Assembly: GCA_016795105.1 (NCBI GenBank) | Contig: JAEUIH010000027.1 | Location: forward strand, 1-64,000 | Source: Planctomyces sp. | Lineage (GTDB): Bacteria; Planctomycetota; Planctomycetia; Planctomycetales; Planctomycetaceae | Direction: 5' to 3' | Length of the DNA stretch: 64,000 nt | In this document: positions 76-22,010 of the stretch, in pieces | Numbering within the stretch: the first letter of the stretch is position 1 | Layout: every line of letters starts with the position of its first letter | Made by a program: the position numbers and the translations under genes | The notes under the pieces: model-generated | Told to the model about the DNA's origin: nothing | The model's database searches: none | The model's input: only the letters and a program-made list of their open reading frames with translations

Positions 76-435
76 ATGTATTCGCGACTTCGAGAACGTA
101 TCAGAAGGCGAACGCTGGCTTTCTCGCTGTTGATCTTGTGCATCGTGACCTACTTCAGCGCATTCCTGTACTTGCGGCGGGGGGCGAATTCGTCTGGTTA
201 TCCACAGATGTATATCTTCAGCACGGAAGCGATCGAGAATGATCGGCTAGTGACCATTTTCACACCGATCATTTGGCTTTCCGGCGGACGAATGACTTCT
301 TCCGACCATGAAGTGTCGATGGCAGACGAACTTCCCCGCAATGGGCGTCCTGTGTATCTCCGCAGCAATCATCGTATGTGGTCAAGAATCGGCAGTCACT
401 TTGATACTCTGCAGTCAGAGATACCGATTCACTAG
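76..435 (+). CDS. Small membrane-anchored hypothetical protein
   Basis: A 119-residue ORF. A basic N-terminus (about residues 4-13, rich in arginine) is followed by one hydrophobic segment at about residues 14-34, which predicts a single membrane anchor with a C-terminal domain outside the cytoplasm. I recognise no family. It lies just before the first RHS tip, and its start is only about 75 bases from the window edge, so the gene upstream is not visible. It could be an immunity protein for an RHS toxin lying outside the window, but that is inference from position only. There is no strong ribosome-binding site. Confidence 0.45.
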   Translation: MYSRLRERIRRRTLAFSLLILCIVTYFSAFLYLRRGANSSGYPQMYIFSTEAIENDRLVTIFTPIIWLSGGRMTSSDHEVSMADELPRNGRPVYLRSNHRMWSRIGSHFDTLQSEIPIH

Positions 436-524
436 CGATCATTCACAGCAAATCGCACACGCGACGGTCGACCTCGTGACTGAGTTGCAACGAATCCTCC
501 AGGGCAAGGTCGTCCCGTCATTTC

Positions 525-1052
525 ATGCCTGTCAGTGCCGACAATCCACAGACGGGGACCGCCAACGACGGCGATCTGCCGGGCCTGAGTGGCACAGGCA
601 ACGAATACTCGCCGCAACGCAGCTACACCGGACGCGAGCCGGATGCCGTCACCGGCCTGCTGTACTACGATGCACGCTGGTATGACCCCGGTGTGGCACA
701 GTTCATCAGCGAAGACCCCATTGGCTTCGCGGCCGGGGACGCCAACCTGCGGAGATACGTTGGCAACTCCATGCCCAATGCGGTGGATCCGACGGGGTTG
801 GAGGAGAAGGAGATGGAGTTGGTGGTCTTTGGTCGACCGAACGTCGGCGGTCCACGAGTGCAGTATCAAGGGGAAATCATGTTCCCTCAGGTTGCTCGCC
901 GACTTGGAATCCCGGGCTCAGATGATTCGGACACGTATTCACGCTGGGACAGCAAAGAATTTGAAGCGGGTGTTTGGCTCGTGAAGCCGTATTACGCACG
1001 CGATACTAACGGCAAAGAGTACATTCGTTACTACAGTGCCATCACTCGCTAG
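525..1052 (+). CDS. Orphan RHS-repeat core tip with short C-terminal extension
   Basis: A 175-residue ORF. Residues 26-93 carry the RHS-associated core, with the typical LLYYDARWYDP, ISEDPIGF and DPTGL motifs. In the family this core ends a shell-forming RHS protein of over 1000 residues and marks the junction to a variable toxin domain. Here nearly all of the shell is missing, so this is a displaced tip rather than a full gene. Residues 94-175 are a non-core extension. The ORF ends at a TAG (1050-1052), but the same frame stays open for another 690 bases, into a nucleotidyltransferase-like domain, so the stop may be a disabling nonsense change. The bases from about 530 are close to those at 7429, in the third tip. 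It may be a silent donor cassette for recombination into a full RHS gene elsewhere. Confidence 0.75.
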   Translation: MPVSADNPQTGTANDGDLPGLSGTGNEYSPQRSYTGREPDAVTGLLYYDARWYDPGVAQFISEDPIGFAAGDANLRRYVGNSMPNAVDPTGLEEKEMELVVFGRPNVGGPRVQYQGEIMFPQVARRLGIPGSDDSDTYSRWDSKEFEAGVWLVKPYYARDTNGKEYIRYYSAITR

Positions 1053-1154
1053 ATCGATCACCCATCGCGACCACCTCGACTTCGTGAAGCGTGGATTGTC
1101 CCACCACATCGCCTGCTCGAATTCCTTAAAGAAGATCGATCGAAGTACGAACAG

Positions 1155-1742
1155 ATGGAGACGCTTGCTTTTGGGATCAGAGAGAATCTGACGCCGGGAC
1201 AAGTAGAGACATTCGCAACAGGTAGCATTCTGCCCCATGCAAAAGAGGAACTAAAACGCCAGTGGACGGACCCGATGCTTGTGTATCGCGGCTTAATCGC
1301 GTGTGTTCTTGCGTCACCTAGACCTCGTCTCGGAGATCTTCGTCCTGCAGAAATTCGTGTAATCCAGAGTCGCGTCAACGCCGCCGGACGCCCACTTGAA
1401 GTAGTGGGCTCTGCGGCGCGAGGAACTCGCCGAGGGGTCGGCACGAATCTTCACATCGGTAAGGAAAAGGGGGTAACACGAAGTGATATCGATTATGCGA
1501 TTCCTCCGTCAACCAGTGAGTTCTTTGATTCTGTAGGTCCTTTACCCGATCGCATTGAATTCGCGCCAACGATTCACTCGCCAATGGAAGGGCCATCAAT
1601 TCGATTCGCTCCACATTCGCGTCCCATTTTTATTCCGAAAATCGGGGACGAACCCCTGTATGGACCAGCACCCGTCATAGAATCGCTTGTGCCGCTCGCG
1701 GTTCCCCCCGCGATTCGTCCGAATACTGACCCAAGGGAGTAA
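1155..1742 (+). CDS. Putative nucleotidyltransferase-fold toxin domain of an RHS cassette
   Basis: A 195-residue ORF in the same reading frame as the RHS tip ending at 1052. No stop lies between 1053 and 1154, so the domain could once have been fused to that tip. Residues 85-90 read GSAARG and residues 110-114 read SDIDY. This pair matches the glycine-serine helix and the first metal-binding Asp-x-Asp of nucleotidyltransferase-fold enzymes, which transfer a nucleotidyl group to protein or RNA. Such domains are known among polymorphic toxin tips. The C-terminal 60 residues are rich in proline. The start at 1155 is simply the first ATG. The stretch before it (34 codons) also looks coding, so the true protein may begin earlier or be an inactive fragment. 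A metallophosphoesterase begins six bases downstream. Confidence 0.55.
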   Translation: METLAFGIRENLTPGQVETFATGSILPHAKEELKRQWTDPMLVYRGLIACVLASPRPRLGDLRPAEIRVIQSRVNAAGRPLEVVGSAARGTRRGVGTNLHIGKEKGVTRSDIDYAIPPSTSEFFDSVGPLPDRIEFAPTIHSPMEGPSIRFAPHSRPIFIPKIGDEPLYGPAPVIESLVPLAVPPAIRPNTDPRE

Positions 1743-1748
1743 TCCTGA

Positions 1749-2285
1749 ATGCGCAACTCAACGCTGCAAAAAATTGGTATCGTCTCTGACACTCACGGAG
1801 TGCTGCATTCGAAACTCATTGAGTCTCTTGAGGGAGTCGACTGGATTATTCACGCCGGGGATGTCGGCGACGTCTCAATTCTGGAGGCTCTCCGCGCTAT
1901 TGCGCCGGTATCCGCAGTACGTGGCAACCACGATCGTGGCATGGAATTCGCTGACCTTCCAGAGCATGATTTCATTTCGATTGGCGAAGACTCCTATGCA
2001 TACGTGCTTCACGATCTGAAGGAAATTCAGTTTGATCCGTGGGCTGGGAGGTGCGAACTCGTGGTGAGCGGACACACCCATATTCCGTCATGTTTCGTGG
2101 ATCGCGGTGTTATTTTTCTAAATCCCGGGAGTGCTGGAATTCGACGAGAAAGTGAACACATGTTGACATGTGCGATTCTCGTCAGAGTTGAACCAACATG
2201 GATGGTGCGATTTGTTGATCTGGAAAACAGTGAGAAAAGTGAATGCAATTCAATATCAGTGCAGCGAAGTAAAAAAGATACTTAG
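1749..2285 (+). CDS. YfcE/MJ0936-type metallophosphoesterase
   Basis: A 178-residue calcineurin-like phosphoesterase. All signature motifs are visible: SDTHG (residues 13-17, with D14 and H16), HAGD (35-38), GNHDR (59-63), H88, SGHTH (107-111) and NPGS (125-128). They supply the residues for a two-metal centre that hydrolyses phosphomonoesters or phosphodiesters. The length is usual for small YfcE-like enzymes (about 160-185 residues). It starts six bases after the nucleotidyltransferase-like ORF and probably shares its transcript. In an RHS toxin cassette this is the immunity-gene position. An enzyme that removes a nucleotidyl group added by the toxin would fit, but this is inference. It could equally be an unrelated housekeeping phosphoesterase. 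Confidence 0.85.
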   Translation: MRNSTLQKIGIVSDTHGVLHSKLIESLEGVDWIIHAGDVGDVSILEALRAIAPVSAVRGNHDRGMEFADLPEHDFISIGEDSYAYVLHDLKEIQFDPWAGRCELVVSGHTHIPSCFVDRGVIFLNPGSAGIRRESEHMLTCAILVRVEPTWMVRFVDLENSEKSECNSISVQRSKKDT

Positions 2286-2354
2286 TCCGGTCGCGGGAAC
2301 AAGTGTATTGATCAAGTCAGGAAGGATGCGTTCCGAATAACCGATGTCGCCACC

Positions 2355-3557
2355 ATGGCCAGCAGCGGGAACAGCACTGCCGCGCTGGTGAATCATCTCG
2401 AATACAACGCATTCGGGGCGATCACGTCACAGACCAATTCCGCGTACCAGCCCCTGCAGACCTACACCGGCCAGATTCTGGATTCTGCGACCGGGCTGCT
2501 GTACTACGACGCACGCTGGTATGACCCCGGTGTGGCACAGTTCGTGAGCGAAGACCCGATCGGCTTCGCAGCCGGGGACGCCAACCTGCGACGATACGTC
2601 GGCAACTCCATGCCCAATGCGGTGGATCCGACGGGGTTGGACTTCGTAGACGTCGACGACCAAATCGCGATTTGGGTAGAAGAGGATTCGCTTGGTCGCA
2701 ATGGACAGTCACATGACTTAGGGCATGTTGAGGGCGATACGATTACTCTCCGGCCTCAATATGGTGGCGGTCAAATCTCGCTGTCCAGGCTAAAGCAATT
2801 TGTTGATGCGGGCCTCAGACACCAATCACTATACATGCATGTCTCCACGCTGACGGGACTCAGTGACGACGACAAACAGTTCTCCATAAGGTTTGCAATC
2901 TCCGAGGTGTACTTCCAGACGAAAAACGCGACCTATCGAGCTGGAGACCAGTGTGACGAAGAAGGAAATATCACGGCCTCCGCAGGAGCGAACGGACCAC
3001 TTGCCGCAATACTCATCATGCACATGATTCGGCAGGTTGCCATTGATCTGGCCATTGAATTTGCAGGGGGCACAGCGATTACCGCGATCGCCAAGGGCGG
3101 TAAACTGTTCCTTCGGGCGGGAGGAGAGACGATAGAACTCACCGTCGAGCAGGTTGCGAAAAAACTTGGAAAGAATGCTGATGAAGTTGACCTTGCCGCA
3201 ATCGCTAGGCAACTTGATGGGAAGAAGTTGGATGATGTACTTGCTGCAAACAGGAAGTTGCCACGATTTGAAGGTCCAAAGCCGAACTACTCCGTTAATC
3301 CGGCCCATGTACCCGGGACCTTACGACATGGAAAAACACCGCTACCAGTCGATGCTGACGAAGTATTTCGTCACGCGGTCCCCGACGATCCGGTGAACCC
3401 AAGGAATTGGTACGGCCGAAATGCGAACGGCCAGATTTACCGATTCTCTGGAGGAAATGATGGCACTGCACACTTTAGCGGAATCGATGGCGTTGGAGAT
3501 GGGATACGAAATATTACGAAATATGCACGCCAACGATTGGAGGAAATGTTGCGATGA
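2355..3557 (+). CDS. Orphan RHS tip with C-terminal toxin-like domain
   Basis: A 400-residue ORF. Residues 1-95 are RHS core (YTGQ, LLYYDARWYDP, SEDPIGF, VDPTGL), almost identical in DNA to the tip at 525. Residues 96-305 form a variable linker with a hydrophobic, alanine- and glycine-rich stretch at about 212-254, a common feature of pretoxin regions that might serve membrane passage. Residues 308-400 are a compact basic end domain with NPAH (315-318), GKTPLP (326-331), NWYGR (351-355) and TAHF (371-374). It has the look of a small secreted nuclease or RNase toxin, but I cannot name the family. The stop overlaps the start of an Imm42-like gene by four bases, the usual toxin-immunity arrangement. 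The start is uncertain: the frame remains open upstream (for example V-R-K-D-A-F). Confidence 0.75.
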   Translation: MASSGNSTAALVNHLEYNAFGAITSQTNSAYQPLQTYTGQILDSATGLLYYDARWYDPGVAQFVSEDPIGFAAGDANLRRYVGNSMPNAVDPTGLDFVDVDDQIAIWVEEDSLGRNGQSHDLGHVEGDTITLRPQYGGGQISLSRLKQFVDAGLRHQSLYMHVSTLTGLSDDDKQFSIRFAISEVYFQTKNATYRAGDQCDEEGNITASAGANGPLAAILIMHMIRQVAIDLAIEFAGGTAITAIAKGGKLFLRAGGETIELTVEQVAKKLGKNADEVDLAAIARQLDGKKLDDVLAANRKLPRFEGPKPNYSVNPAHVPGTLRHGKTPLPVDADEVFRHAVPDDPVNPRNWYGRNANGQIYRFSGGNDGTAHFSGIDGVGDGIRNITKYARQRLEEMLR

Positions 3558-4075
3558 TCTTTGGAAAGACCGATAGTTTTGCAATCGAAGTCGGTGAACT
3601 CGAATCGTATCTCAATTTTTCCGGGATATACGTTCAGTTCCGGTTTTGGATCGGTAAAGTCCCAGTGGGAGATTGGAACGACCGGATATCGTTGCAGGCA
3701 AGTATTGAAAACGCTTGTACGATTCTTGAGACAGAAGCGATGCGACAGCTTTCTCCGTTCGCACAGAATCATGCTTCTGATGTGTTTCAGGCAGTGTATG
3801 ATGCCTTCTACTCGTACGATTACACGAAAGCCCCAGTTGTTATTCCGAACCTTCGGGATCAATTCCATCTGGACGAGATTGGCATGGGAGCTATTCAAGA
3901 CAAGTATGGACTAATTCTCGTTGCGACTTCAAACAGTTTGGAGAGAGTCATTGCCAAAGATTTGAGGCAAGAATTGCTTATTGCAGACGTGTCGGTGCCG
4001 GTGGGGTTTGTTGAGTCGGTACTGCGCGAGTTCATTGAGTGGGGAAGAACACTCTTGCGTGCAGCACGAGGTTGA
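3554..4075 (+). CDS. Imm42-like immunity protein
   Basis: A 173-residue cytoplasmic protein starting with MIFG and FAIEV, then FRFWIGKVPVGDW. This opening is what I recall of the Imm42 family: a short strand with FAIE, followed by a WI-G-x-x-x-GD motif. Such proteins bind and neutralise the toxin made by the gene directly upstream. The ATG overlaps the stop of the RHS tip at 3557 by four bases (ATGA), so the two are translationally coupled. No signal peptide or membrane segment is seen, which fits a cytosolic antidote. The family name rests on recall of the N-terminal motif only; the role as immunity protein is supported independently by position. Confidence 0.7.
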   Translation: MIFGKTDSFAIEVGELESYLNFSGIYVQFRFWIGKVPVGDWNDRISLQASIENACTILETEAMRQLSPFAQNHASDVFQAVYDAFYSYDYTKAPVVIPNLRDQFHLDEIGMGAIQDKYGLILVATSNSLERVIAKDLRQELLIADVSVPVGFVESVLREFIEWGRTLLRAARG

Positions 4076-4157
4076 AAGCTTGATTGTCCCGCAGGCGATT
4101 CTAAACGTTCTTCGGAGCGTGAGCCTGCTACCGTCTCGCATAAGAAAAAGAACGCGA

Positions 4158-4181
4158 CCAGAGCCAACATGCAGGCTCTGG
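4158..4181 (+). terminator. Hairpin downstream of the Imm42-like gene
   Basis: Perfect 8-base arms CCAGAGCC and GGCTCTGG are separated by an 8-base loop. The hairpin starts 82 bases after the immunity gene stop. It is not followed by a T-run, so it is not a classical intrinsic terminator and may only stabilise the message end. Confidence 0.35.
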
Positions 4182-4377
4182 CGGCAGCTTTGTCCGTCAA
4201 CGGAATCGCCTAGTAGTGATTCCGAATCTTGGGCCGACGATCCCCTTCCATACCCCGCGCCAGCACTTCAAACTCGCACCTGCCGTTGACTCCCGGGTCA
4301 AAAGTTCGCAGTCGTCTGCTGCCGTTTCGGGGCACCCAAACCGCGCTCTATCCCCCTCGCAACCCCCACTGCCTCCG

Positions 4378-4640
4378 GAGATTCTACGAACCAGTTTGCC
4401 CCCCGGAGTTACAACTCTCAACAACCATCGGGTTGATGACGCTCCCATCAGGCCTGCAGTTCTCAACCAGTCGCTCCCTCCGCAAATTCACCCCGCCGAC
4501 ACCACTCCAACCCCTGCTCCCGCACCTCAAACTCGCGCCTGCTGTTAACTGGCGGGTCAAAAGTTCGCGGACCCTCCCAAAACCGCCCCGCTGGTTAACA
4601 GTTTTGCTCTGGCGGCTGTTCACTGGCTCTTGAAAAGTTC
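4378..4640 (+). repeat. Dispersed direct repeat, copy 1
   Basis: About 265 bases that recur in diverged form at about 8796-9085. Shared stretches include TTCTACGAACCA, CGCCGACACCACTCCAA, TCCCGCACCTCAAACTCGC, TTAACAGTTTTGCTC and GGCTCTTGAAAAGTTCG. A third partial copy of the central part (ACTTCAAACTCGC and GGGTCAAAAGTTCGC) lies at about 4264-4305. The gene-free stretch 4076-4823 consists mainly of this material. No transposase is present. Confidence 0.7.
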
Positions 4641-4823
4641 GTAGTCGTCTGGTGTCGTTTGATGCACATCGAAAGAGACTCGAACCTGCCGAAAACATTG
4701 ATACGTAACGATTTGCGTCGATTTACTCTCCCGGGAAGAGACGCGGGTGGTTACGTAGAGAGTCCCTTTCGGGGAGCTTTTTGAGACATCTCAAACTCCC
4801 GAAAACAATCCATCAAAATGAAG

Positions 4824-4860
4824 AACGCCGGGAGTGCTTCTCCTCGGCGTTTTTTGTTTT
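4824..4860 (+). terminator. Probable intrinsic terminator
   Basis: The left arm AACGCCGGGAG and the right arm CTCCTCGGCGTT pair around a 5-base loop, with a single bulge or mismatch, and run into TTTTTTGTTTT. It ends transcription from the left, before the DUF433 remnant. It also rules out the GTG at 4834 as a plausible start for that remnant. Confidence 0.65.
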
Positions 4861-4887
4861 CCGCCCTTTGTTGCAAATCTCCTTGTT

Positions 4888-5124
4888 ATGGGAGGCAAGC
4901 CCTGCATTCGGGGGACGCGAGTGACAGTGGGAACGATTGTCGGGCTGATTGCGAGCGGGAGCAGTACAGAAGAGATTCTTCGTGACTATCCGTACATAGA
5001 AGCCGATAATATTCAGGCTTCACTGTCTTATGCGGCATGGCGATCTGAAGAAGTGGACGTCGGTTCCACGCAAAGACCCCTCTGGCCCTGTGCCAGAGGT
5101 GAATCGGTTTGGAAACTAGAATAG
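4888..5124 (+). pseudogene. Truncated DUF433 gene, 3' end replaced by a dispersed repeat
   Basis: From the ATG at 4888, about 60 residues match the DUF433 antitoxin-like family: GGKPCIRGTRVTV, a helix-turn-helix-like middle, then the I-QASLSYAA end. Family members begin about 13 residues earlier, with an I-x-x-D-P-x-I strand that is missing here. The preceding bases come from a terminator and do not restore it. The C-terminal tail, with RPLWPCARGE, is translated from the dispersed hairpin repeat beginning near 5064, so the original 3' end has been overwritten. The PIN-like toxin that normally follows DUF433 genes is absent. I read it as a decayed toxin-antitoxin module. Confidence 0.6.
5064..5118 (+). 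repeat. Hairpin-containing dispersed repeat, partial copy
   Basis: This copy contains arms CCTCTGGC (5079-5086) and GCCAGAGG (5092-5099) with loop CCTGT, then TGAATCGGTTTGGAAACT. It belongs to a family also found at about 6508, 11828, 20688 and 21752. Confidence 0.75.
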
Positions 5125-5186
5125 CGATCCAAAAGGCGATTGACACCGACGTCTATGCACAGGCGCTACCCTGATGCAGCCAGATG

Positions 5187-5232
5187 GATTCGATTGGCAT
5201 GTACGGAAATATGCCGTACAATTAATCGAATC
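5187..5232 (+). promoter_or_regulatory. Nested inverted repeat, probable operator of the DUF1778/GNAT module
   Basis: Two nested perfect inverted repeats: an outer pair GATTCGATT (5187-5195) and AATCGAATC (5224-5232), and an inner pair TGTACGG (5200-5206) and CCGTACA (5214-5220), with a 7-base centre. The repeat ends one base before the AAGGAG ribosome-binding site (5233-5238) of the antitoxin gene. DUF1778-type antitoxins autoregulate by binding palindromes in their own promoters, so an operator is the likely role. An RNA hairpin occluding translation is an alternative. Confidence 0.7.
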
Positions 5233-5244
5233 AAGGAGCAAGCG

Positions 5245-5535
5245 ATGGCAACTGCAAACAGCACCTCAAAGTCGGCTCGAATCGAAACTCGAGTTTCTCA
5301 AGAGCAGAAAGCTCTAATCGAGCGGGCTGCCGCCTTCAGTGGTCGGACCGTTTCCGAATTTGTGCTTGCTCATGTTGAAGTCGCTGCAAAGAAGGTGATC
5401 GACGAGCATGAGAAGCTGCACTTAGACCAGGCGCAAAGCAAAATACTGGTCGATGCTTTATTGTCTCCCAGGAAGCCAAACAAGATATTGAAGCTTGCTA
5501 TGGAGGACTATCGCAAGCAGGTCGAAAGCCGATGA
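5245..5535 (+). CDS. DUF1778 (TacA-like) antitoxin
   Basis: From the ATG at 5245, preceded by AAGGAG seven bases upstream, this encodes a 96-residue protein. It contains a ribbon-helix-helix-like N-terminus (RIETRVSQEQKALIERAA, then GRTVSEFV) typical of DUF1778. The C-terminal half is the toxin-wrapping segment, with LHLDQAQSK and an LLSPRKPN motif, although family members usually have a longer F-x-x-A-L-x-x-PP-x-PN. It represses its own operon and blocks the GNAT toxin. The toxin start overlaps its stop by four bases. A longer reading from 5140 exists but has no ribosome-binding site and would run through the operator. Confidence 0.88.
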   Translation: MATANSTSKSARIETRVSQEQKALIERAAAFSGRTVSEFVLAHVEVAAKKVIDEHEKLHLDQAQSKILVDALLSPRKPNKILKLAMEDYRKQVESR

Positions 5536-6029
5536 AGGGCCACGTTTGTGAGCCGCTCGGCAATCAACACGATCGAACGCAATTTGATTGTGGCGTGTCA
5601 GTTCTCAACGACTACCTGGCCAAGTATGCGAAACAAGATGTAAAACGAAAGGCGGCGGCAGTTTTTGTTGTGCTCAAGCGCGAGGAGCCGAAGCGAGTCA
5701 TCGGTTTTTATACTCTGTGCGCGACGTCGGTAGCCCTTTCTGATTTACCGGAAGAGGTCACAAGAAGGCTTCCGCGATATCCCGAAATTCCCGCAATCCT
5801 GGCAGGAAGATTGGCTCGAGACGTGGATTATCCAGGCGTCGGCTCGCTACTTTTGTCCGATGCAATCACACGTTGCGTCCGAGTGGCAATTGAGATCGCG
5901 GCAAGCCTGATCGTTGTGGATTCCAAAGGTGAAGCCGCAACGCATTTTTATGAGAAGTTCGGGTTTATCTCGCTACCGAAATTACCTGACCGGATGTTTC
6001 TTCCAATGCAGACGGCAGAGAAACTTTAA
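5532..6029 (+). CDS. GNAT-family acetyltransferase toxin (TacT/AtaT-like)
   Basis: A 165-residue GNAT protein coupled to the DUF1778 antitoxin by an ATGA overlap. Toxins of this group acetylate the aminoacyl end of charged tRNAs and stop translation. Visible features are the F-x-CGVSVLNDYL opening typical of the group (residues 18-28), GFYTLCATSVAL (58-69), the LARDVDYPGVG acetyl-CoA loop (94-104) and the C-terminal HFYEKFGF (137-144), which includes the conserved tyrosine. The acetyl-CoA loop is shorter than the common Q/R-G-x-G-x-G/A form, and PGVG replaces it. This may be a family variant rather than damage. The length (about 160-175) is normal, so the module looks intact. Confidence 0.88.
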   Translation: MKGHVCEPLGNQHDRTQFDCGVSVLNDYLAKYAKQDVKRKAAAVFVVLKREEPKRVIGFYTLCATSVALSDLPEEVTRRLPRYPEIPAILAGRLARDVDYPGVGSLLLSDAITRCVRVAIEIAASLIVVDSKGEAATHFYEKFGFISLPKLPDRMFLPMQTAEKL

Positions 6030-6237
6030 ACTCTACAGGTCCACGTTTGAACCGAATCGCGTCAGAAAACTGATCTATGAAAAGAGTATGGGTTGAATCC
6101 AGCCGCAGGGCACAGTTGGCGGCAGATCAAAGCCGCCCGTAAGAATATTCTGAGTTGGGAAAGTGCGGTGGAAATCAGGGAGTTAAGGTGATCGGTGACG
6201 CAGGACGATGAGCTGCCGATCAACGGTCGACGATACG

Positions 6238-6366
6238 AATCTGTCCAGATACGTCGACAACTCCGTGCCCAATGGGGTGGATCCGACGGGGTTGATTGAT
6301 CCAGCCATATCGCTGCCTTGGCAGCCCTGTGCCAACGCACGTTCGTCAGCACCAGAACCGCGTTGA
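6238..6366 (+). pseudogene. RHS core relic
   Basis: In one frame the stretch reads L-S-R-Y-V-D-N-S-V-P-N-G-V-D-P-T-G-L, followed by a short tail to a TGA at 6366. This is the end of the RHS core found intact at 2587-2640, with four substitutions. No RHS sequence precedes it and no toxin domain follows, so it is a decayed junction fragment. The bases from 6030 to 6237 show no gene. Confidence 0.65.
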
Positions 6367-6507
6367 TAACTACGGATCGGTGAATGGTGTCTCAAGAGCT
6401 CTTGTCAGCACGGCGACTGTGGGGTTCTGATACACGACCTGGACCTTGGTGCAATGCCGGTGCGACAAAGGCAAATTCGCCAGGTGTGGCACAACGACGC
6501 GATGCCA

Positions 6508-6625
6508 TCGAAAACTCATCGTGCCCTCGCCCCCACTTTCATCACCGTTGCACGAACAAACGCCGCTCGCCCTGCAGAGACCCCTTTGGCCCTGTGCCAG
6601 AGGTGAACCGGTTTGGAAACTAGAA
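6508..6625 (+). repeat. Hairpin-containing dispersed repeat, 5' part
   Basis: This copy matches 11838-11955 and 21760-21858. It has a hairpin of CCTTTGGC (6583-6590) and GCCAGAGG (6596-6603), in which the one changed base keeps a G-U pair, then CGGTTTGGAAACT. The copy stops before the second, longer hairpin of the family. The flanking stretch 6367-6507 has nothing recognisable. Confidence 0.7.
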
Positions 6626-6646
6626 TATGGTGAAGTGTACTGTGCT

Positions 6647-6955
6647 TCAAACAAGGCGATTCAGCCAGTGCAGCGGACGCCGGCGAGAATGCGCTAAGGC
6701 AACGACCACGATCTCATCGTCGCGACAGAGGTATACGACTGCGTAGGGAAACCGATGCAGCATTTGCCTCCGAATCTCATGAGGACCGGAGTAGTATTCC
6801 AGCCGTGGGGCACTCAGAGGATTCCGTTGAATCACGTCGAACGCAGAATTCAATTCAGAGATAAATTCATCGCCAAGTCCAGACTGTCGGTCTTCATACC
6901 AGATCGCAGCAGCGACAGCCTCGCCCTGCGCCGCTGGCAGTACTCGAAAATTCAC
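6647..6955 (-). CDS. ParE/RelE-family toxin
   Basis: A 102-residue protein of the ParE/RelE fold. It has an AAIWYEDRQSGLGDEF helix, typical of ParE toxins, a central IQRNPLSAPR, then the basic strand IRRQMLHRFPYAVVYL and the end strand EIVVVALAHSRRRP. ParE toxins poison DNA gyrase; RelE-type relatives cut mRNA on ribosomes. The sequence fits the ParE side better, but activity is not certain from sequence. Its start overlaps the stop of the antitoxin gene at 6952-6955 by four bases, giving the antitoxin-first order usual for these modules. It lies on the minus strand between RHS debris and the third RHS tip. Confidence 0.87.
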   Translation of the reverse strand: MNFRVLPAAQGEAVAAAIWYEDRQSGLGDEFISELNSAFDVIQRNPLSAPRLEYYSGPHEIRRQMLHRFPYAVVYLCRDDEIVVVALAHSRRRPLHWLNRLV

Positions 6956-7212
6956 GGTGTTGCCTGACGGTGACGGTGCTCGGCAACTGCCCGTTTCAGA
7001 TGTTCCAGTGATTTATCAAAATCGACTGTAGCTGTTTCCCCCTGATCATAGGCAGCGATTCGTCGGTTGATCTCGTTAGACCAGATTTCCCCAATCTCCG
7101 AAGACGAAAAATGCCCTGCGGAAATTTGCTGCTCCAGCATATCCGCCAGAAAGGCCTGATCCGCCGGTGGCAAGGCCAGCGCCTGTGCGAGAATGTCATC
7201 TCTTGTCGTCAT
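6952..7212 (-). CDS. Addiction-module antitoxin (TIGR02574-like)
   Basis: An 86-residue acidic protein. The N-terminal half has ALALPPADQAFLADML, close to the family pattern L-P-x-x-E/D-R-x-x-L-x-x-x-L. The second half has the I-G-E-I-W-S-N-E-I-N-R-R-I-x-x-Y-D-x-G motif, normally W-x-x-E-I-x-x-R-x-x-x-x-x-x-G-x-x-x. These small proteins neutralise ParE-type toxins encoded immediately downstream. No DNA-binding domain is obvious, so autoregulation may rely on the complex or be absent. It starts about 100 bases from the divergent third RHS tip. Confidence 0.85.
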   Translation of the reverse strand: MTTRDDILAQALALPPADQAFLADMLEQQISAGHFSSSEIGEIWSNEINRRIAAYDQGETATVDFDKSLEHLKRAVAEHRHRQATP

Positions 7213-7315
7213 GGGGATATCCTGCTCTGTTCTCGTTAACCGAGGATCAATTCAGGCAATTTTCGCATCGACATTTTGATCTGTCGAGTGGATTTTCAAA
7301 AAAGGCAATTGGTAC

Positions 7316-8458
7316 GTGTTCGACCACCAGAACACGGTCCGCGACGTGGCTATCTTCGATGGTACTCCGGGGGATCAGGCGGACGTCGTCAACCATCTGA
7401 CGTACAACTCAGCAGGCAGCGTGGTGAGTGCCGACAATCCACAGACCGGGACCGCCAACGAAGGCGATCTGCCGGGCCTAAGTGTCACAGGCAACGAATA
7501 CTCGCCGCAACGCAGCTACACCGGACGCGAGCCGGATGCCGTCACCAGGCTGATCTACTACCGCGCCCGCTGGTACGACCCTCGCCTCGGCAGATTCATC
7601 AGCGAAGACCCGATCGGCTTCGCAGCCGAGGACGCCAACCTGCGGAGATACGTCGGTAACTCCATGCCCAATTCGGTGGATCCGACGGGGTTGGATGAAT
7701 TCGGCTTTGAAGGCCAACACGACCTTGAGGAGTGGCTCAAAACGCACCCAGACCATCCATGGCGACCTTATGTGGAGCAAACACTCAAAAACATGCAACA
7801 TCCATGGCAATTGGAACCTTCCCCAAGTTTCACTGATCAATTCAAATGGGGGAATTTTAGAGATCTTTCATATCAGGGTTGGTTTGAGCGACGTTATCCT
7901 GGCTGGAATAAGGAAGCACAGGATCGGGCAAGAAAATACGTTCAATGGCAACTACTGAACTTTCAGCTTTCTGGAATCGAATCAGGTGAGTCGAACCAAA
8001 TCGCCTTAGTGATACCAGACCGCGACAAAGAAAATCACTGGTGGAAGACCTTGATGCCTGCACTTCAATCTCAAGGCGAAAACAACGGAGAAACACTATA
8101 TGGTGATTTGCCACAGTCAGCACGTGAAGCAAACTGCGATGGGCCAGGAGCATTCTGGTTCGAAGTAGTGAATACTCGAGCCCAGCGAGTGGGAAATGAA
8201 CTTCATTGGTCAGCGGACGTCATTATCCGAGATGCTTTGGGGGTTTCTCCGCAAGATCGAGATGAAGATGAGGGAGCTGTCGAACTGGCTTTATTCTTCG
8301 GCGCCCTTGAAGACAAAATCGTGACTCACGCAGCATTCTCCATTAAAGGAAAACAGAAGGTCATCCCTGGCCTTGATGACTTTCGAGGATTCGCACTCAT
8401 CGGCTATGAGAGTCACATCATGCGAATCCCTCGGCCAGACTTCATTAGAAAAGAATGA
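7316..8458 (+). CDS. Orphan RHS tip with unrecognised C-terminal domain
   Basis: A 380-residue ORF beginning at a GTG. Residues 1-30 retain an earlier RHS element (DHQNTVRDV and NHLTYN), and 64-126 are the core: YTGREPDAV, ARWYDPRLGRFISEDPIGF and VDPTGL. Residues 127-380 are a long unique domain rich in tryptophan and aromatic residues, with HDLEEWL, PSFTDQFKWG, WFERRYPGW, ENHWWKT and GPGAFWFEV. I do not recognise it. There is no hydrophobic segment, and acidic stretches lie near 310. By the logic of RHS cassettes it would be the toxic effector, but it might be any displaced C-terminal domain. The upstream frame is open for some codons without an ATG, so the start is uncertain. A small membrane protein follows after three bases. 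Confidence 0.7.
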   Translation: MFDHQNTVRDVAIFDGTPGDQADVVNHLTYNSAGSVVSADNPQTGTANEGDLPGLSVTGNEYSPQRSYTGREPDAVTRLIYYRARWYDPRLGRFISEDPIGFAAEDANLRRYVGNSMPNSVDPTGLDEFGFEGQHDLEEWLKTHPDHPWRPYVEQTLKNMQHPWQLEPSPSFTDQFKWGNFRDLSYQGWFERRYPGWNKEAQDRARKYVQWQLLNFQLSGIESGESNQIALVIPDRDKENHWWKTLMPALQSQGENNGETLYGDLPQSAREANCDGPGAFWFEVVNTRAQRVGNELHWSADVIIRDALGVSPQDRDEDEGAVELALFFGALEDKIVTHAAFSIKGKQKVIPGLDDFRGFALIGYESHIMRIPRPDFIRKE

Positions 8459-8461
8459 CCA

Positions 8462-8731
8462 ATGAAACGCCAATCCCGTTTTCTCTGTGTTCTTTTTGCG
8501 TTCACAATCCCAGTCCTCGTACGAAGTGTGGCATCTGTATTGATTGAAGATCAGGATGTTCTCTGGAAAAAGGGTTTCTGGATTGGGATCGCATCTTCAG
8601 TTCTCGGCTTATGTTTTCTGCTGGCTTCAAGTTGGAAGCCCAGGATGGAAACGGTCTTCATTGTCGTGCCATGGTTATTAATGCAGTTGGCTCTGATATT
8701 TTTTGATGTTCTTCCGAGCCGATTCAATTGA
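8462..8731 (+). CDS. Small three-segment membrane protein, candidate immunity protein
   Basis: An 89-residue protein with hydrophobic segments at about residues 7-26, 38-57 and 64-83. It starts three bases after the stop of the third RHS tip, so the two are surely co-transcribed. A membrane immunity protein usually guards against toxins acting at or across the inner membrane. If this reading is right, the unknown domain of the upstream gene would act on membranes or cell wall. No family was recognised. Confidence 0.6.
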   Translation: MKRQSRFLCVLFAFTIPVLVRSVASVLIEDQDVLWKKGFWIGIASSVLGLCFLLASSWKPRMETVFIVVPWLLMQLALIFFDVLPSRFN

Positions 8732-8795: not shown

Positions 8796-9085
8796 CAACG
8801 ATTCTACGAACCACGTTGCCTCGATGGCCAACACTCTCAACAGCCATCAGATTGCTAACGCCCCCGGCGAGCATTCGTCACCCAGGGGTCTGCAGCCAGC
8901 AGCCCAGCCGTTTCGAACGCCGATCTTTCCCCGCCGACACCACTCCAATCCCTGCTCCCGCACCTCAAACTCGCGCCTGCTGTTAACTCGCGGGTCAAAA
9001 GTTCGCGGACCCTATAAAAACTGACCCACTGGTTAACAGTTTTGCTCTTGCGGCTGTTAACTGGCTCTTGAAAAGTTCGTAGACG
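8796..9085 (+). repeat. Dispersed direct repeat, copy 2
   Basis: Diverged copy of 4378-4640 with the same block order. From about 8935 to 9085 the match is nearly base for base, including TTAACAGTTTTGCTC and CTCTTGAAAAGTTCGTAG. The gene-free stretch 8732-9267 holds this repeat and then the promoter region of the ParDE module. Confidence 0.7.
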
Positions 9086-9267: not shown

Positions 9268-9567
9268 ATGGCGACGAAAAACATCAGCCTGACGGAACAC
9301 TACGCTGACTTGGTAGATTCACTGGTCAACTCAGGCAAGTACAAGAACGCGAGCGAGGTGGTTCGTGAAGGGTTGCGCTTGCTCGAGCAAAGAACCGCTG
9401 AAGACGATCGTCGACTTGAGTTGCTGAAGCATTTGGCGGCAGAAGGATTTCAGCAACTCGATCAGGGCGAGGGAGTTCGGCTTGGAACTGAAAATCAAAT
9501 TGCGGCTCACATTTCTAAACTAGGTCGTCAAGCCGCTAAACGCTCGAAGAACGGAAAGTCTGGTTGA
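9268..9567 (+). CDS. ParD-family antitoxin
   Basis: A 99-residue protein with an N-terminal ribbon-helix-helix: NISLTEHYADLVDSLVNSG, then YKNASEVVREGLRLLEQR. This is the standard ParD (CC2985-like) pattern, in which the strand binds DNA and the paired helices dimerise. The C-terminal tail, about residues 50-99, would wrap the toxin; it is a little longer than usual (ParD proteins are about 80-95 residues). GAGG precedes the ATG. It is followed by the toxin gene after three bases and preceded by a perfect palindrome that probably mediates autoregulation. Confidence 0.88.
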   Translation: MATKNISLTEHYADLVDSLVNSGKYKNASEVVREGLRLLEQRTAEDDRRLELLKHLAAEGFQQLDQGEGVRLGTENQIAAHISKLGRQAAKRSKNGKSG

Positions 9568-9570
9568 TCC

Positions 9571-9963
9571 ATGCCGCGTGTAGTACTTGCCAATGCGGCG
9601 AGCGAAGACATCGTCAGCATCCTGGAATGGAGTCATGAGAACTTTGGCGAGCTCGCGAGATTGCGTTACGAAGCATTGTTGACTAAGGCGATCATCGATA
9701 TCGCAGAGTCGCCTGATCGCCCAGGATGTGTTGCTCGAGAAGAGCTGGCAGCTGGGGCTCGCACCTATCACCTCTGGCACAGTCGCAATCGTGTCGGGAA
9801 GACGCCTGGTGTCGTTCGCAATCCTCGACACTTCCTGTTATTCCGACCTGGAGCTCAGAGCGACATTGAAATCGGCCGCGTGCTGCATGACAGTATGGAC
9901 CTGGCTTCAAATCTCCCCTCAGGCGACATGGTACAATCCAGCGACGAAGAGTCGCATGAGTGA
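9571..9963 (+). CDS. ParE-family toxin
   Basis: A 130-residue ParE/RelE-fold toxin: an N-terminal strand, then the helix SEDIVSILEWSHENFGELARLRYEALL, the middle IAESPDRPGCVAREEL and the C-terminal strand of the fold (RNPRHFLLFRPGAQSDIEIGRVLHDSMDL). The closing I-E-I-G-R-V-L-H-D-S-M-D pattern is typical of this group. It is about 30 residues longer than most ParE proteins, through a central basic loop and a C-terminal tail rich in Ser, Asp and Glu. It starts three bases after parD on the same transcript. The presumed target is DNA gyrase. Confidence 0.86.
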   Translation: MPRVVLANAASEDIVSILEWSHENFGELARLRYEALLTKAIIDIAESPDRPGCVAREELAAGARTYHLWHSRNRVGKTPGVVRNPRHFLLFRPGAQSDIEIGRVLHDSMDLASNLPSGDMVQSSDEESHE

Positions 9964-11827: not shown

Positions 11828-12110
11828 GTGGCGAGACTCTCATGACCAATCTTTGTGCTGTTGCTCCCACTTTCACAACCGTTGCACAAACAGACGCCAC
11901 TCGCCCTGCAGACCCCTCTGGCCCTGTGCCGGAGGTGAATCGGTTTGGAAACTGGAACGAGAAAAACAAGTCGCTCTTTTTCCTCATCTGATCGGATCGC
12001 GCAGTGATCCGTTCGGATGAGGAGATGACAGTCTGGATCGTTGCCATCCGCTGCGAGTGGATTCCAACGGCAACGTGCCGTGCGACCGCGTTGGGGTCAA
12101 CCGCAGGCGA
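11828..12110 (+). repeat. Hairpin-containing dispersed repeat, full copy A
   Basis: About 280 bases matching 21752-22010. It contains hairpin 1, CCTCTGGC (11915-11922) and GCCGGAGG (11928-11935), where the change keeps a wobble pair. It also contains hairpin 2, 11983-11998 against 12006-12021, with 15 of 16 positions paired around a 7-base loop. It lies in the gene-free stretch 11750-12241. Confidence 0.75.
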
Positions 12111-12122
12111 CTCCCAGCGACA

Positions 12123-12178
12123 TTCCGTGGCTGCTGCAGGATCATCAGAACACGGTGGGCTCCTACTGCGGGAACAAC
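12123..12178 (+). pseudogene. RHS relic
   Basis: One frame reads P-W-L-L-Q-D-H-Q-N-T-V-G-S-Y. The D-H-Q-N-T-V part is identical to the start of the RHS tip at 7316 and typical of the RHS segment before the core. Nothing else of the gene remains. Confidence 0.45.
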
Positions 12179-12241: not shown

Positions 12242-15200
12242 TCACTTTCTGATCATCGCAGTGGCTTCTCGGCGGAGTATTTCGGGGATCAGCCAGTCAA
12301 CGCTGATCGTGTCGTGCGGGACGATCGCTTTGCCTCTGTGTTTTTCGGTGCCGAGCGTACTCAGCTCCGCTGGGATGATCGTTTCAGCCTGGGCAAGCGT
12401 CCGGAGAGCTTGCTCGTGTTGACCGAGTTTCTCTTCGGACATGGCTCGTGTGACGAGAGCCAGAGCGCCGACATGGCCGGACAATGGATTAATCATCTTC
12501 GTTTCCAGGATCGCCTCCCCAAACTTTCCTTCGCGGTACAGCACCAGCGTGTTGCACGCGCGGAACCACTCCCACGCAGGCTGATAGGATTCGTTCGCGA
12601 AGCCGTCTCGCATTATCTGAATCGGCAGGCGGTCAAGCCGAACTGCATCGGATGACAGCAGGCTCCCTTTGCACAAGGACTCGGCGACAGCGGCATCTGT
12701 GATCGGCTCGAACGGCTTCAATGCGCGATCGCAGAATTGACGATGCCCTTCGACATCGCCTGCCAGCATGAGTAGTGCGGCGGTGTAGGCGAACAGGCCT
12801 CGATCCTGCTGAGCATCTTTTTGGTCGGTCTCGGCAGCCTCCGCAGCTTTGGCCCAATTGCCCTGCATTGCGAATTGATCACGTCGTAGTGCCTGATCGA
12901 ATTCGGCGCTGTCGAAGAATGATGAGACTCGATGTGCGGAAATCGCATCCCCTCGAATGAGATGCCCGGCTTCGCTGCGGATTACTTCGGCGAGCAGCCA
13001 GTCGACGTGGACTGTTGTGGCCGCGACGGGGAGCGGGCCAGTGTACTCGGCAGTTCCAAGCGTGCGAAGTTCCGTTGGGATCAGCTTCTCAGCGTTCTCC
13101 AGGGACTCGAGAGCTTTCTCGTGCTGACCGAGCTTCTCCTCGGCCATCGATCGCACCACCAGTGACAGCGCGCCGGTGTAACCGGAAAATTTTGTTTGTT
13201 TCTGCGACTCGCTCAGAACCAGTTCCCACTGACCGGCGCGATACGCCGCCAACATACTCGTGGCGAGATAGAAAGAGCGACCAGTCTTCTGCTGCGGGTC
13301 ATCGACGGCATCGCGTAGTTGTTTGATCGGCAGGCGAGTAAGCTCAACGCCGCTATCACTCAGGAGGCACGTTTTCGTGAGCGACTCTGCCTCGTCGGTC
13401 GTAAGCGTCCCGGTAAAGGTCGTGAGGTTCGTCTGACACGTCTTCCGATAGCCCTCGACATCATCTGCAAGCAATTGCAGCGCGGCCCGCCGAGATATCT
13501 CCACGCGGTCACGCGGATTACTGGCTGTCAACTGGAGGCTGGCCTTCGCCGCTTCAGCCCACTCTCCGAGCACAGCCCATTGTTCTGACGTCGTGGAGTT
13601 CGATGTCGGATGTGGCACGAACGGAGTCGTGCGTGCTTCGCTCTGATGGATCAGCAGCGAGGCTTCGCGGCGGAGCAGTTCGTTGACAACGTTGTCACGA
13701 TACAGGGGCCATTCGGAAACCGGTAGTGAGCCTTTGTACCTGGAGGTGCCGAGATCGGCGAGCACATCGGGAGTCAGAGCTTCGGCCAGAGCCAGCGACT
13801 TCACGGCATCATCATGCCGACCGAGTTTCTCTTCCGCCATGGCGCGTGTCGCGAAGACTTGAGCGCCGGCGAAGCCCGTCAGGTTTGTGGTCTTGCCGAG
13901 CCATTCGAGCGACTCGTCAAAACGTCCGGCGCGATAGGCCGCAAGTCCCGCATTCATGACCGAGAACGATGCCTTCCTTTCGGTGAATTCCCGTATCGCA
14001 ATTGCGTTGAGTTTCGCCATCGGAATGGCACTGAGTTCGACGGCCTCAGGTCGCAGCAGGCAGACCTTGCAGAGCGAGGACACGACGACGGGATCATCGG
14101 AATCCCTGAATTGCACAAGCATCTTCGAGCAGAGGTCGCGATATGCCGCTTCGTCACCCGCCATTAAGTTGGTGGTCGCGACGTTCAGCCAGGCAATGCG
14201 GTCCGTCTGTTGACGCTTGAGGACCTCGTCAAAGTCTGCCGCACTCTCTTTCCAGCGACCGAGACGTGAGAGATACGTCGCGCGAGTCAGGTAGCCGGCA
14301 GTCTCGGTTGGATTAAGTTCGATTGCTTTCGTGAGCATTGCGAGTTCACGCTCAGCCACCTGCGCGGCTTGCATGGCTTCCCACGCAAGTCGCTCGGTGA
14401 CGTCTCGGGCTGCGGCTTGTTCACGCTTCCTGATGAAATCGCTCATAGACAACCCGGCCTCGTCGCGGAGTATCCGCTGATAGAAACCGGTCAGCGAATG
14501 TGGCCACTCTTCCAGCCCCATCTCGTCGACAGCAGCTCTGACTGTTTGCTGAGCAAGCTCGCGTTGTCCCAATTGCTGCAGAGCCGTTGCCGTCAGCAGC
14601 GCTCGAAGCAACGTATCGCCCTCGCGTTTCGCGCTGTCGTTATTTGAACGGTCGCGTTCTTCATCGCGATGCAGGACTTCGAGCGCAACCTGCGACTCTC
14701 CATTAATGAGACACGCGGCCGCGAAGAGTTCAACGGTTGGCAAGTCGCCGTTTCGCACGGCGGTTAGCAGCTCGTCAGCGAAGCCGCCTCGCGGTTCTTC
14801 GCTGACAGATAATTCGAAATGGCCAAGCCGCGCCTGCGGATATTTTGAGTTTCCTGATTCGAGTTCAACAATCAATTCATCGTCGTCTTTGAGTTCGCAC
14901 GGCTGGCTCGCGACAAGCATTAACCAGTGCGACTTGAGAATGTGAGGCCACCCGGTCCAATGAGAGCTGAGGTCACCATCCAGCACTGCCCACGGGCCAT
15001 CTTGCCGCATTGTTTCGGAGTCAAGCGGACGAACGTAGCTTGCGGATGCGTGCGACAGCGTTACCGGTATTTCAGTACCGTCATTGCGTCGGATGCGAAC
15101 CCGAACCTCCGCGAGGTTAAAGCCCCCGCCAAACAGTCCCGAACCGCCGTCGGGAAGGGACGCATGCGGAACTATATTCAGACGCAGCGCCGCAATCTGC

Positions 15201-21751: not shown

Positions 21752-22010
21752 AGGTGCGACTCTAATGACCAATCTTTGTGCCCTCGCATCTACTCTCACA
21801 ACGGTTCCACGCAGAGACCCCTCTGGCCCTGTGCCAGAGGTGAATCGGTTTGGAAACTGGAACGAGAACAACGAATCGCACTTTTCCCTCATCCGACCGG
21901 ATCTCGCAGCGATCCGCTCAGATGAGGAGATGACGGTCTGGATCGTTGCTTCGTGAGGCGGGGGAATTCCAGCGGCGGTGTGTTGTGCGACCCTGTTGGG
22001 GTGAAACGCG
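21752..22010 (+). repeat. Hairpin-containing dispersed repeat, full copy D
   Basis: Matches 11828-12110. Hairpin 1 is perfect, with arms 21820-21827 and 21833-21840. Hairpin 2 spans 21888-21903 against 21911-21926, with 14 of 16 positions paired. Most of the gap 21659-22043 is this repeat. Confidence 0.75.

Follow-up and report, generated by a model that had tools for sequence, protein, structure and literature searches.

Orphan RHS toxin/immunity cassettes with mosaic cores probably form a partly decayed array in a planctomycete-like genome

How do RHS tips that lack a delivery shell come to stand in a row, each joined through the same DPTGL motif to a different end, and what use might such a row have? 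The first 12 kb of the stretch analyzed here (bases 1–64000 of contig C199, hereafter the window) raise this question. The contig belongs to a draft genome of 8.9 Mb in 391 contigs, and the gene content of the window, including giant kinase/WD-repeat proteins and planctomycete-type cytochrome and sulfatase-like genes, suggests affiliation with the Planctomycetota. Very probably, orphan RHS toxin/immunity cassettes make up these 12 kb, in an array that has partly decayed and in which the core serves as a homology handle. The locus combines orphan RHS tips, a sharp junction, mosaic cores, decay, interleaving with toxin–antitoxin (TA) modules and one recognized immunity gene; it is a known kind of locus, an orphan rhs-CT/rhsI array, in part degenerate and found here in another phylum. 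The G+C content is 0.526 in the first 12.2 kb, comprising the array, vs. 0.545, and the genes beyond 12.2 kb are long and ordinary.

Three tips, all on the forward strand, share a core of 204 nucleotides (nt): tip 1 (positions 525–1052, core 597–800), tip 2 (2355–3557, core 2436–2639), and tip 3 (7316–8458, core 7490–7693), with DPTGL of tip 1 ending at 800. Each of them matches the Rhs_assc_core model TIGR03696 at 61–70 bits (E-values 9.3e-17, 1.6e-19, and 4.7e-17, respectively), BLAST E-values between the core copies are about 1e-44 to 1e-99, and a repeat search of the window returned a 197-nt block in three copies, at 606, 2445, and 7499, with a fourth copy of 71 nt at 6224. In the last 60 nt before DPTGL the tips are 93–95% identical to each other, whereas over the next 60 nt the identity is 27–40%; this drop to the background level, judged from the alignment, is what characterizes RHS tips. 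When all 204 nt are considered, pairwise identity of the three aligned core segments is 75–87%, rising towards the junction. The first-pass annotation of this DNA had described nearly the same core up to DPTGL, followed by unrelated continuations; the shared core, the sharp junction, and the unrelatedness of the continuations are borne out, while “nearly the same” overstates the similarity of the core as a whole.

Upstream of the core, the tips of the window retain only 9–70 in-frame codons (tip 3 has a longer upstream RHS stretch than tip 1), and the N-terminal delivery shell is lacking. For tips 2 and 3 this lack is real, because both are far from the contig ends and immediately preceded by unrelated genes, and to this extent the earlier claim that the RHS shell is absent holds. 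It does not extend to tip 1, since the contig starts inside an IS3-family insertion sequence (IS) and the content upstream of this tip cannot be judged. The end of the IS, with the terminal sequence ...TGTCCCTGGAACCTGCAGCACCCC, occupies positions 1–76 and is 100% identical over 74–77 bp to five other sites of the genome, mostly contig ends; OrfA and OrfB of the IS3 type adjoin it on contigs C44 and C381. We considered and rejected a link between C199 and contig C63 via the common 76 bp, as these are the end of a multi-copy IS. The next gene (76–435, forward strand), its start cut by the IS, encodes a product with one transmembrane segment predicted from hydropathy, 47% identical (98 amino acids) to the product of a gene directly behind an RHS core relic on contig C358. 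We read it as a putative orphan immunity gene whose toxin is gone.

The cores themselves record recombination. Two core types are distinguished, type A, represented by the 5′ part of tip 3 and three loci of a sister species, and type B, represented by tip 2 and contigs C34 and C330 (the C330 row is left out of the core comparison figures, its assignment to type B being based on a 91% BLAST match over 290 nt). The maximum chi-square test with 5000 permutations, for which the lowest attainable P is 2e-4, identified three mosaics, each at P = 2e-4. Tip 1 is of type A at the first 26 informative sites and then of type B almost throughout, with the break at core nt 53–57 (about 650–654 in the window); the tip on contig C8 switches from A to B at core nt 86–92; and tip 3 switches from the sister-species type A to B at core nt 110–113 (about 7600 in the window). 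The three different breakpoints indicate three separate exchanges, and, as far as sequence comparison can establish it, recombination in the core is demonstrated by this mosaicism. Moreover, the stretch upstream of tip 1 (436–596, forward strand) and the core are shared with C8 (93% over 365 bp), while the continuation of C8 resembles that of a relic at 6238 (91%), so that different ends occur on related cores. Most documentation of orphan tip arrays and their recombination comes from enterobacteria; the cores compared here preserve traces of at least three separate crossovers, in a planctomycete-like genome that has about 30 RHS core domains, which opens the tip-shuffling model to sequence study in a very different phylum.

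Decay is evident as well. Both relics reported earlier, at 6238 and 12123, are real: the former (6224–6366, forward strand) begins with 71 nt (6224–6294) that match the 3′ end of the core at 80%, followed by a short degenerate continuation, the one 91% identical to C8, and the latter (12082–12156, forward strand) corresponds to RHS sequence immediately preceding the core and shows 87% identity to a stretch of RHS sequence on C358 that translates as WLLQ-HQNTV.

A mechanism consistent with these observations would be as follows. A cassette would represent the 3′ end of an RHS gene, comprising a short core up to DPTGL, a unique toxin domain and, usually, an immunity gene behind it, and the tips would persist without a delivery shell and, judging by the sequence, without translation start signals of their own. 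The conserved core would act as a homology handle, with recombination between copies reshuffling the cores, the step for which mosaicism is demonstrated. We infer that the core is also used to exchange tips with a full RHS gene, a tip being joined to such a gene via the core as in the described enterobacterial loci. Loss of tips would come about through stop codons, deletions, and inserted mobile or TA elements, all demonstrated in the array.

The three cassettes differ in what follows the junction. Tip 2 continues into a 305-residue end (2640–3554), and its stop codon overlaps the start of an Imm42 immunity gene (3554–4075, forward strand; PF15593, E-value 6.9e-7, above the Pfam cut-off) with a strong ribosome-binding site, the only recognizable immunity gene among the three tips. 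Zhang et al. (2012, PMC3482391) list Imm42 together with Ntox18, predicted to be a two-histidine RNase, and our best guess is that the end of tip 2 may be an RNase. Compared with Ntox18, characterized by conserved H, S, and H and by an Imm29 or Imm42 partner, it has the Imm42 partner, and H and S near the C-terminus are visible by eye only; it matches no family model. With tip 2 as a query against genome contigs, only distant cores (40–47%) in two metagenome-assembled genomes were found. Tip 3 carries a 254-residue end (7694–8455) followed by a gene for a small protein of 89 residues with three hydrophobic segments (8462–8731, forward strand), which has no family match and, given its position and hydropathy, is a candidate immunity protein of this tip. 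The frames of tips 2 and 3 are long and uninterrupted, their codon use resembles that of coding sequence, and both tips are putative toxins.

In tip 1, a single in-frame TAG at 1050–1052 is followed by 229 open codons, to 1739. The 102 nt between the TAG and the next ATG are coding-like, scoring 0.246 bits per codon in the frame of tip 1 (in-frame mean 0.176, out-of-frame mean −0.107), although two reverse frames are also high. As the frame remains open past the TAG, the open reading frame (ORF) 1155–1742 probably belongs to this toxin end and does not represent a partner gene; the likeliest reading is that tip 1 is a toxin end interrupted by a stop codon, with its probable remainder at 1053–1742 (forward strand). 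A nucleotidyltransferase-like motif, GSAARG...SDIDYA, is visible in the remainder by eye only, and comparison with nucleotidyltransferase family models gave no Pfam match up to an E-value of 10; family, PDB, plasmid and phylum searches with the remainder gave no match either. Separately, an RHS tip end on contig C31 (977–2842 of the locus) has a nucleotidyltransferase-like motif GSRKTG...STSDVDIAV, also by eye, with no alignment to the remainder of tip 1 and no Pfam support.

Behind tip 1 lies a gene for a YfcE-type metallophosphoesterase (1749–2285, forward strand; PF12850, 4.9e-31; TIGR00040, 1.5e-22) with a good ribosome-binding site. Its consideration as an enzymatic immunity protein was downgraded, as its nearest relatives (51% and 45% identical, from the same genus and family) reside in ordinary gene contexts, next to genes for thioredoxin, glycosyltransferase, or sugar isomerase. 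The phosphoesterase gene is probably ordinary too, and no convincing immunity gene was found behind tip 1. Thus the earlier statement that the tips have unrelated downstream genes needs correction, since ORF 1155 probably belongs to tip 1 itself and a recognized immunity partner is present behind tip 2 only.

Clear ribosome-binding sites precede the genes for Imm42, a TacA-like antitoxin, and the phosphoesterase, whereas those of the tips are absent or weak; shuffled sequence contains promoter-like sites at least as often as this region does. In enterobacterial arrays, start signals are usually missing from orphan tips but present at orphan immunity genes (Poole et al., 2011, PMC3150448), and the pattern in the window parallels this one. 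The immunity genes would then be the expressed part of the array.

Homology is not limited to the core. A 157-bp repeat lies behind the immunity gene of tip 2 (4491–4647) and, 93% identical, behind the cassette of tip 3 (8929–9085), and is otherwise nearly absent from the genome; together with the core, it would place homology on both sides of each of these two cassettes.

The proposed exchange of tips presupposes a main RHS gene, and we searched the assembly for one. It contains 30 Rhs_assc_core matches on about twenty contigs, but the genome search suggested in the first-pass annotation, for a full-length RHS gene with a matching core, returned none. The nearest long RHS gene of the same core subfamily, on contig C369 (2–5616 of the locus), has 1471 codons and a core identity of 70–81%, and the contig end truncates it within the core; it has an apparent frameshift near its 5′ part, between an immunoglobulin/cadherin-like N-terminal part and the RHS part, and its contig end has no high-identity match to other contigs. 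Since the nearest long gene is only 70–81% identical and cut, a matching main gene is not demonstrated, although the draft state of the genome leaves room for it. Only two very long RHS frames are wholly inside contigs, C110 and C33; these full-length proteins were rejected as main genes, as each ends, after the core, in about 900 residues of shared repeat domains and not in a toxin tip. A second core family is represented by contig C63, where a long RHS frame, running off the contig edge, precedes an orphan tip (90% over 312 bp), which is the textbook layout of a long gene with an orphan tip in the same genome, and by contig C70, with four tandem tips in 7.5 kb that have cysteine-rich ends, one with a metallopeptidase-like HELEH motif.

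The core was also looked for in relatives. Among 59 genomes searched, one, a sister species from the same genus (G001, with 16 Rhs_assc_core matches), has extended DNA matches to the core, at 72–74%. Three of its loci carry the core subfamily of the window joined to three other ends, one of them an AHH nuclease (PF14412, 3.7e-15), and one locus keeps 415 codons of RHS sequence upstream of the core. As the same core subfamily occurs on a longer frame and with other tips, the swap model stays plausible. Two RHS loci of this species (6558–7550 and 12530–13516) have close paralogs of a WG-repeat-like protein downstream of different tips.

The window can be compared with four known systems. Like the enterobacterial arrays of orphan rhs-CT/rhsI and cdiA-CT/cdiI modules (Poole et al., 2011, PMC3150448), with which it has most features in common, it consists of several modules with main-gene fragments up to a fixed motif (DPxGL), then unrelated ends, a recognized (tip 2) or candidate (tip 3) immunity gene behind some of them, tips without start signals, and disruption by IS and stop codons; unlike them, it comes from a planctomycete-like host, has no adjacent main RHS gene in the assembled sequence, and features two core types recombined with each other and TA modules in between. 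In Salmonella, likewise, core homology allows an orphan tip to be transferred to the main rhs gene, with which it shares 522 bp at 95% identity (Koskiniemi et al., 2014, PMC3967940), whereas no such partner was found for the window. Replacement of C-terminal toxin domains from stand-alone cassettes is known in polymorphic toxin systems, whose hosts include planctomycetes (Zhang et al., 2012, PMC3482391); in contrast to our case, Imm42 is listed there in proteobacteria and firmicutes but not in planctomycetes, and tip 2 is only a candidate for Ntox18. Finally, the window resembles the type II TA modules derived from Salmonella Rhs (PMC7043789) in having shell-less tips and immunity genes that could act inside the cell; internal expression is reported there, whereas for the window it is hypothetical.

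Several observations weigh against the reading preferred here, an array of orphan cassettes with the core as a homology handle. A full-length RHS gene with the core of the window was not found in this draft assembly, where such a gene could be missing, and the swap of a tip into it is a step that we infer. The longest exact identity between the C369 gene and a tip core is 20 nt, and a match of this length is too short to support efficient homologous recombination. The three toxin ends have neither detected homologs (none in 392 genomes of the phylum and none in 72,556 plasmids) nor a known toxin fold, AlphaFold2 runs without alignments yielded a pLDDT (predicted local distance difference test) of 35 for the remainder of tip 1 and of 41 for the end of tip 2, so that these models were not used for fold searches, and tips 1 and 3 have no recognized immunity protein. 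As to the first-pass claim that orphan tips are swapped into full RHS genes by recombination in the core, the recombination is supported by the mosaics, while a full-length recipient with the same core was not found in the assembly. The three toxin ends without detected relatives are, at the same time, candidates for new toxin families.

Part of this evidence would suit dead debris, RHS 3′ ends that duplication and deletion have left behind and that supply neither tips nor immunity at present: the TAG in tip 1, the two relics, truncated cores on C358, C34, C330, and contig C111, the IS insertion at the start of the window, and the missing main gene all point that way. Still, tips 2 and 3 are intact and coding-like, Imm42 is intact with a strong start signal, and the last 60 nt of the core are still 93–95% identical while the parts upstream have diverged, which makes dead debris a somewhat unlikely, if serious, alternative. 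The tips might instead be stand-alone intracellular TA modules expressed from internal starts, for which Salmonella rhs-CT provides a precedent (PMC7043789); the overlap of the tip 2 stop with the Imm42 start and the setting of the tips amid three ordinary TA modules would agree with that, but the tips have no clear ribosome-binding sites and promoter-like sites do not exceed those in shuffled sequence, and we consider this explanation improbable.

It seems more doubtful still that the array is shell-less only through a contig break, with a full RHS gene upstream in the actual genome. The contig does end inside a multi-copy IS, and many RHS contigs break in or near cores; however, tips 2 and 3 lie deep in the contig after unrelated genes, so that an artefact of this kind would be limited to the region before tip 1. 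We give similarly little credence to a self-recombining archive of tips with no resident full-length RHS gene of its core type. In such an archive, whole cassettes would move by exchange between a left arm of homology, provided by the core, and a right arm, provided by the 157-bp repeat, and they would function as reserves of immunity or as independent TA modules. Our preferred reading remains that of orphan cassettes in a partly decayed array, with the core as the handle.

The remaining features of the region are repeats and the TA modules between the tips. Hairpin repeats of 54 nt, members of a genome-wide family, were found by repeat search at 5070–5123, 6574–6627, and, with a second hairpin, 11906–11959; a further copy lies outside the array (21811–21862). 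The repeat of about 54 nt is a hairpin, CCTCTGGCCCTGTGCCAGAGG, behind which a second strong one, CGGATCGCGCAGCGATCCG, is often present; it has 35 matches in the genome, is frequent on RHS contigs, has no match in Rfam, and looks like a repetitive extragenic palindromic (REP)-type or small mobile element. Integron-like cassettes bounded by this repeat found no support, as the repeats are genome-wide and do not occur one per cassette.

The interleaving with TA modules is confirmed by Pfam for three modules. Downstream of a DUF433 protein (4834–5124, forward strand; PF04255, 1.2e-21) lie genes for the TacA-like antitoxin (5245–5535, forward strand; PF08681, 1.5e-24), with ATG at 5245 preceded by a ribosome-binding site (the mechanically called ORF spans 5140–5535), and for a GNAT acetyltransferase, a TacT-like toxin (5532–6029, forward strand), assigned by PF00583 (4.8e-4, just above the cut-off) and by its pairing with TacA. 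The second module, on the reverse strand, comprises a ParE-type toxin (6647–6955; PF05016, 6.5e-5) and its partner antitoxin of the Unstab_antitox family (6952–7212; PF09720, 3.1e-8), and the third, on the forward strand, a ParD-type antitoxin (9268–9567; PF03693, 9.1e-12) and a ParE-type toxin (9571–9963; PF05016, 3.3e-6). A second locus, on C358 (7742–9949 of the locus), has RHS core relics interleaved with a TacA/GNAT-like TA pair, as seen from translations.

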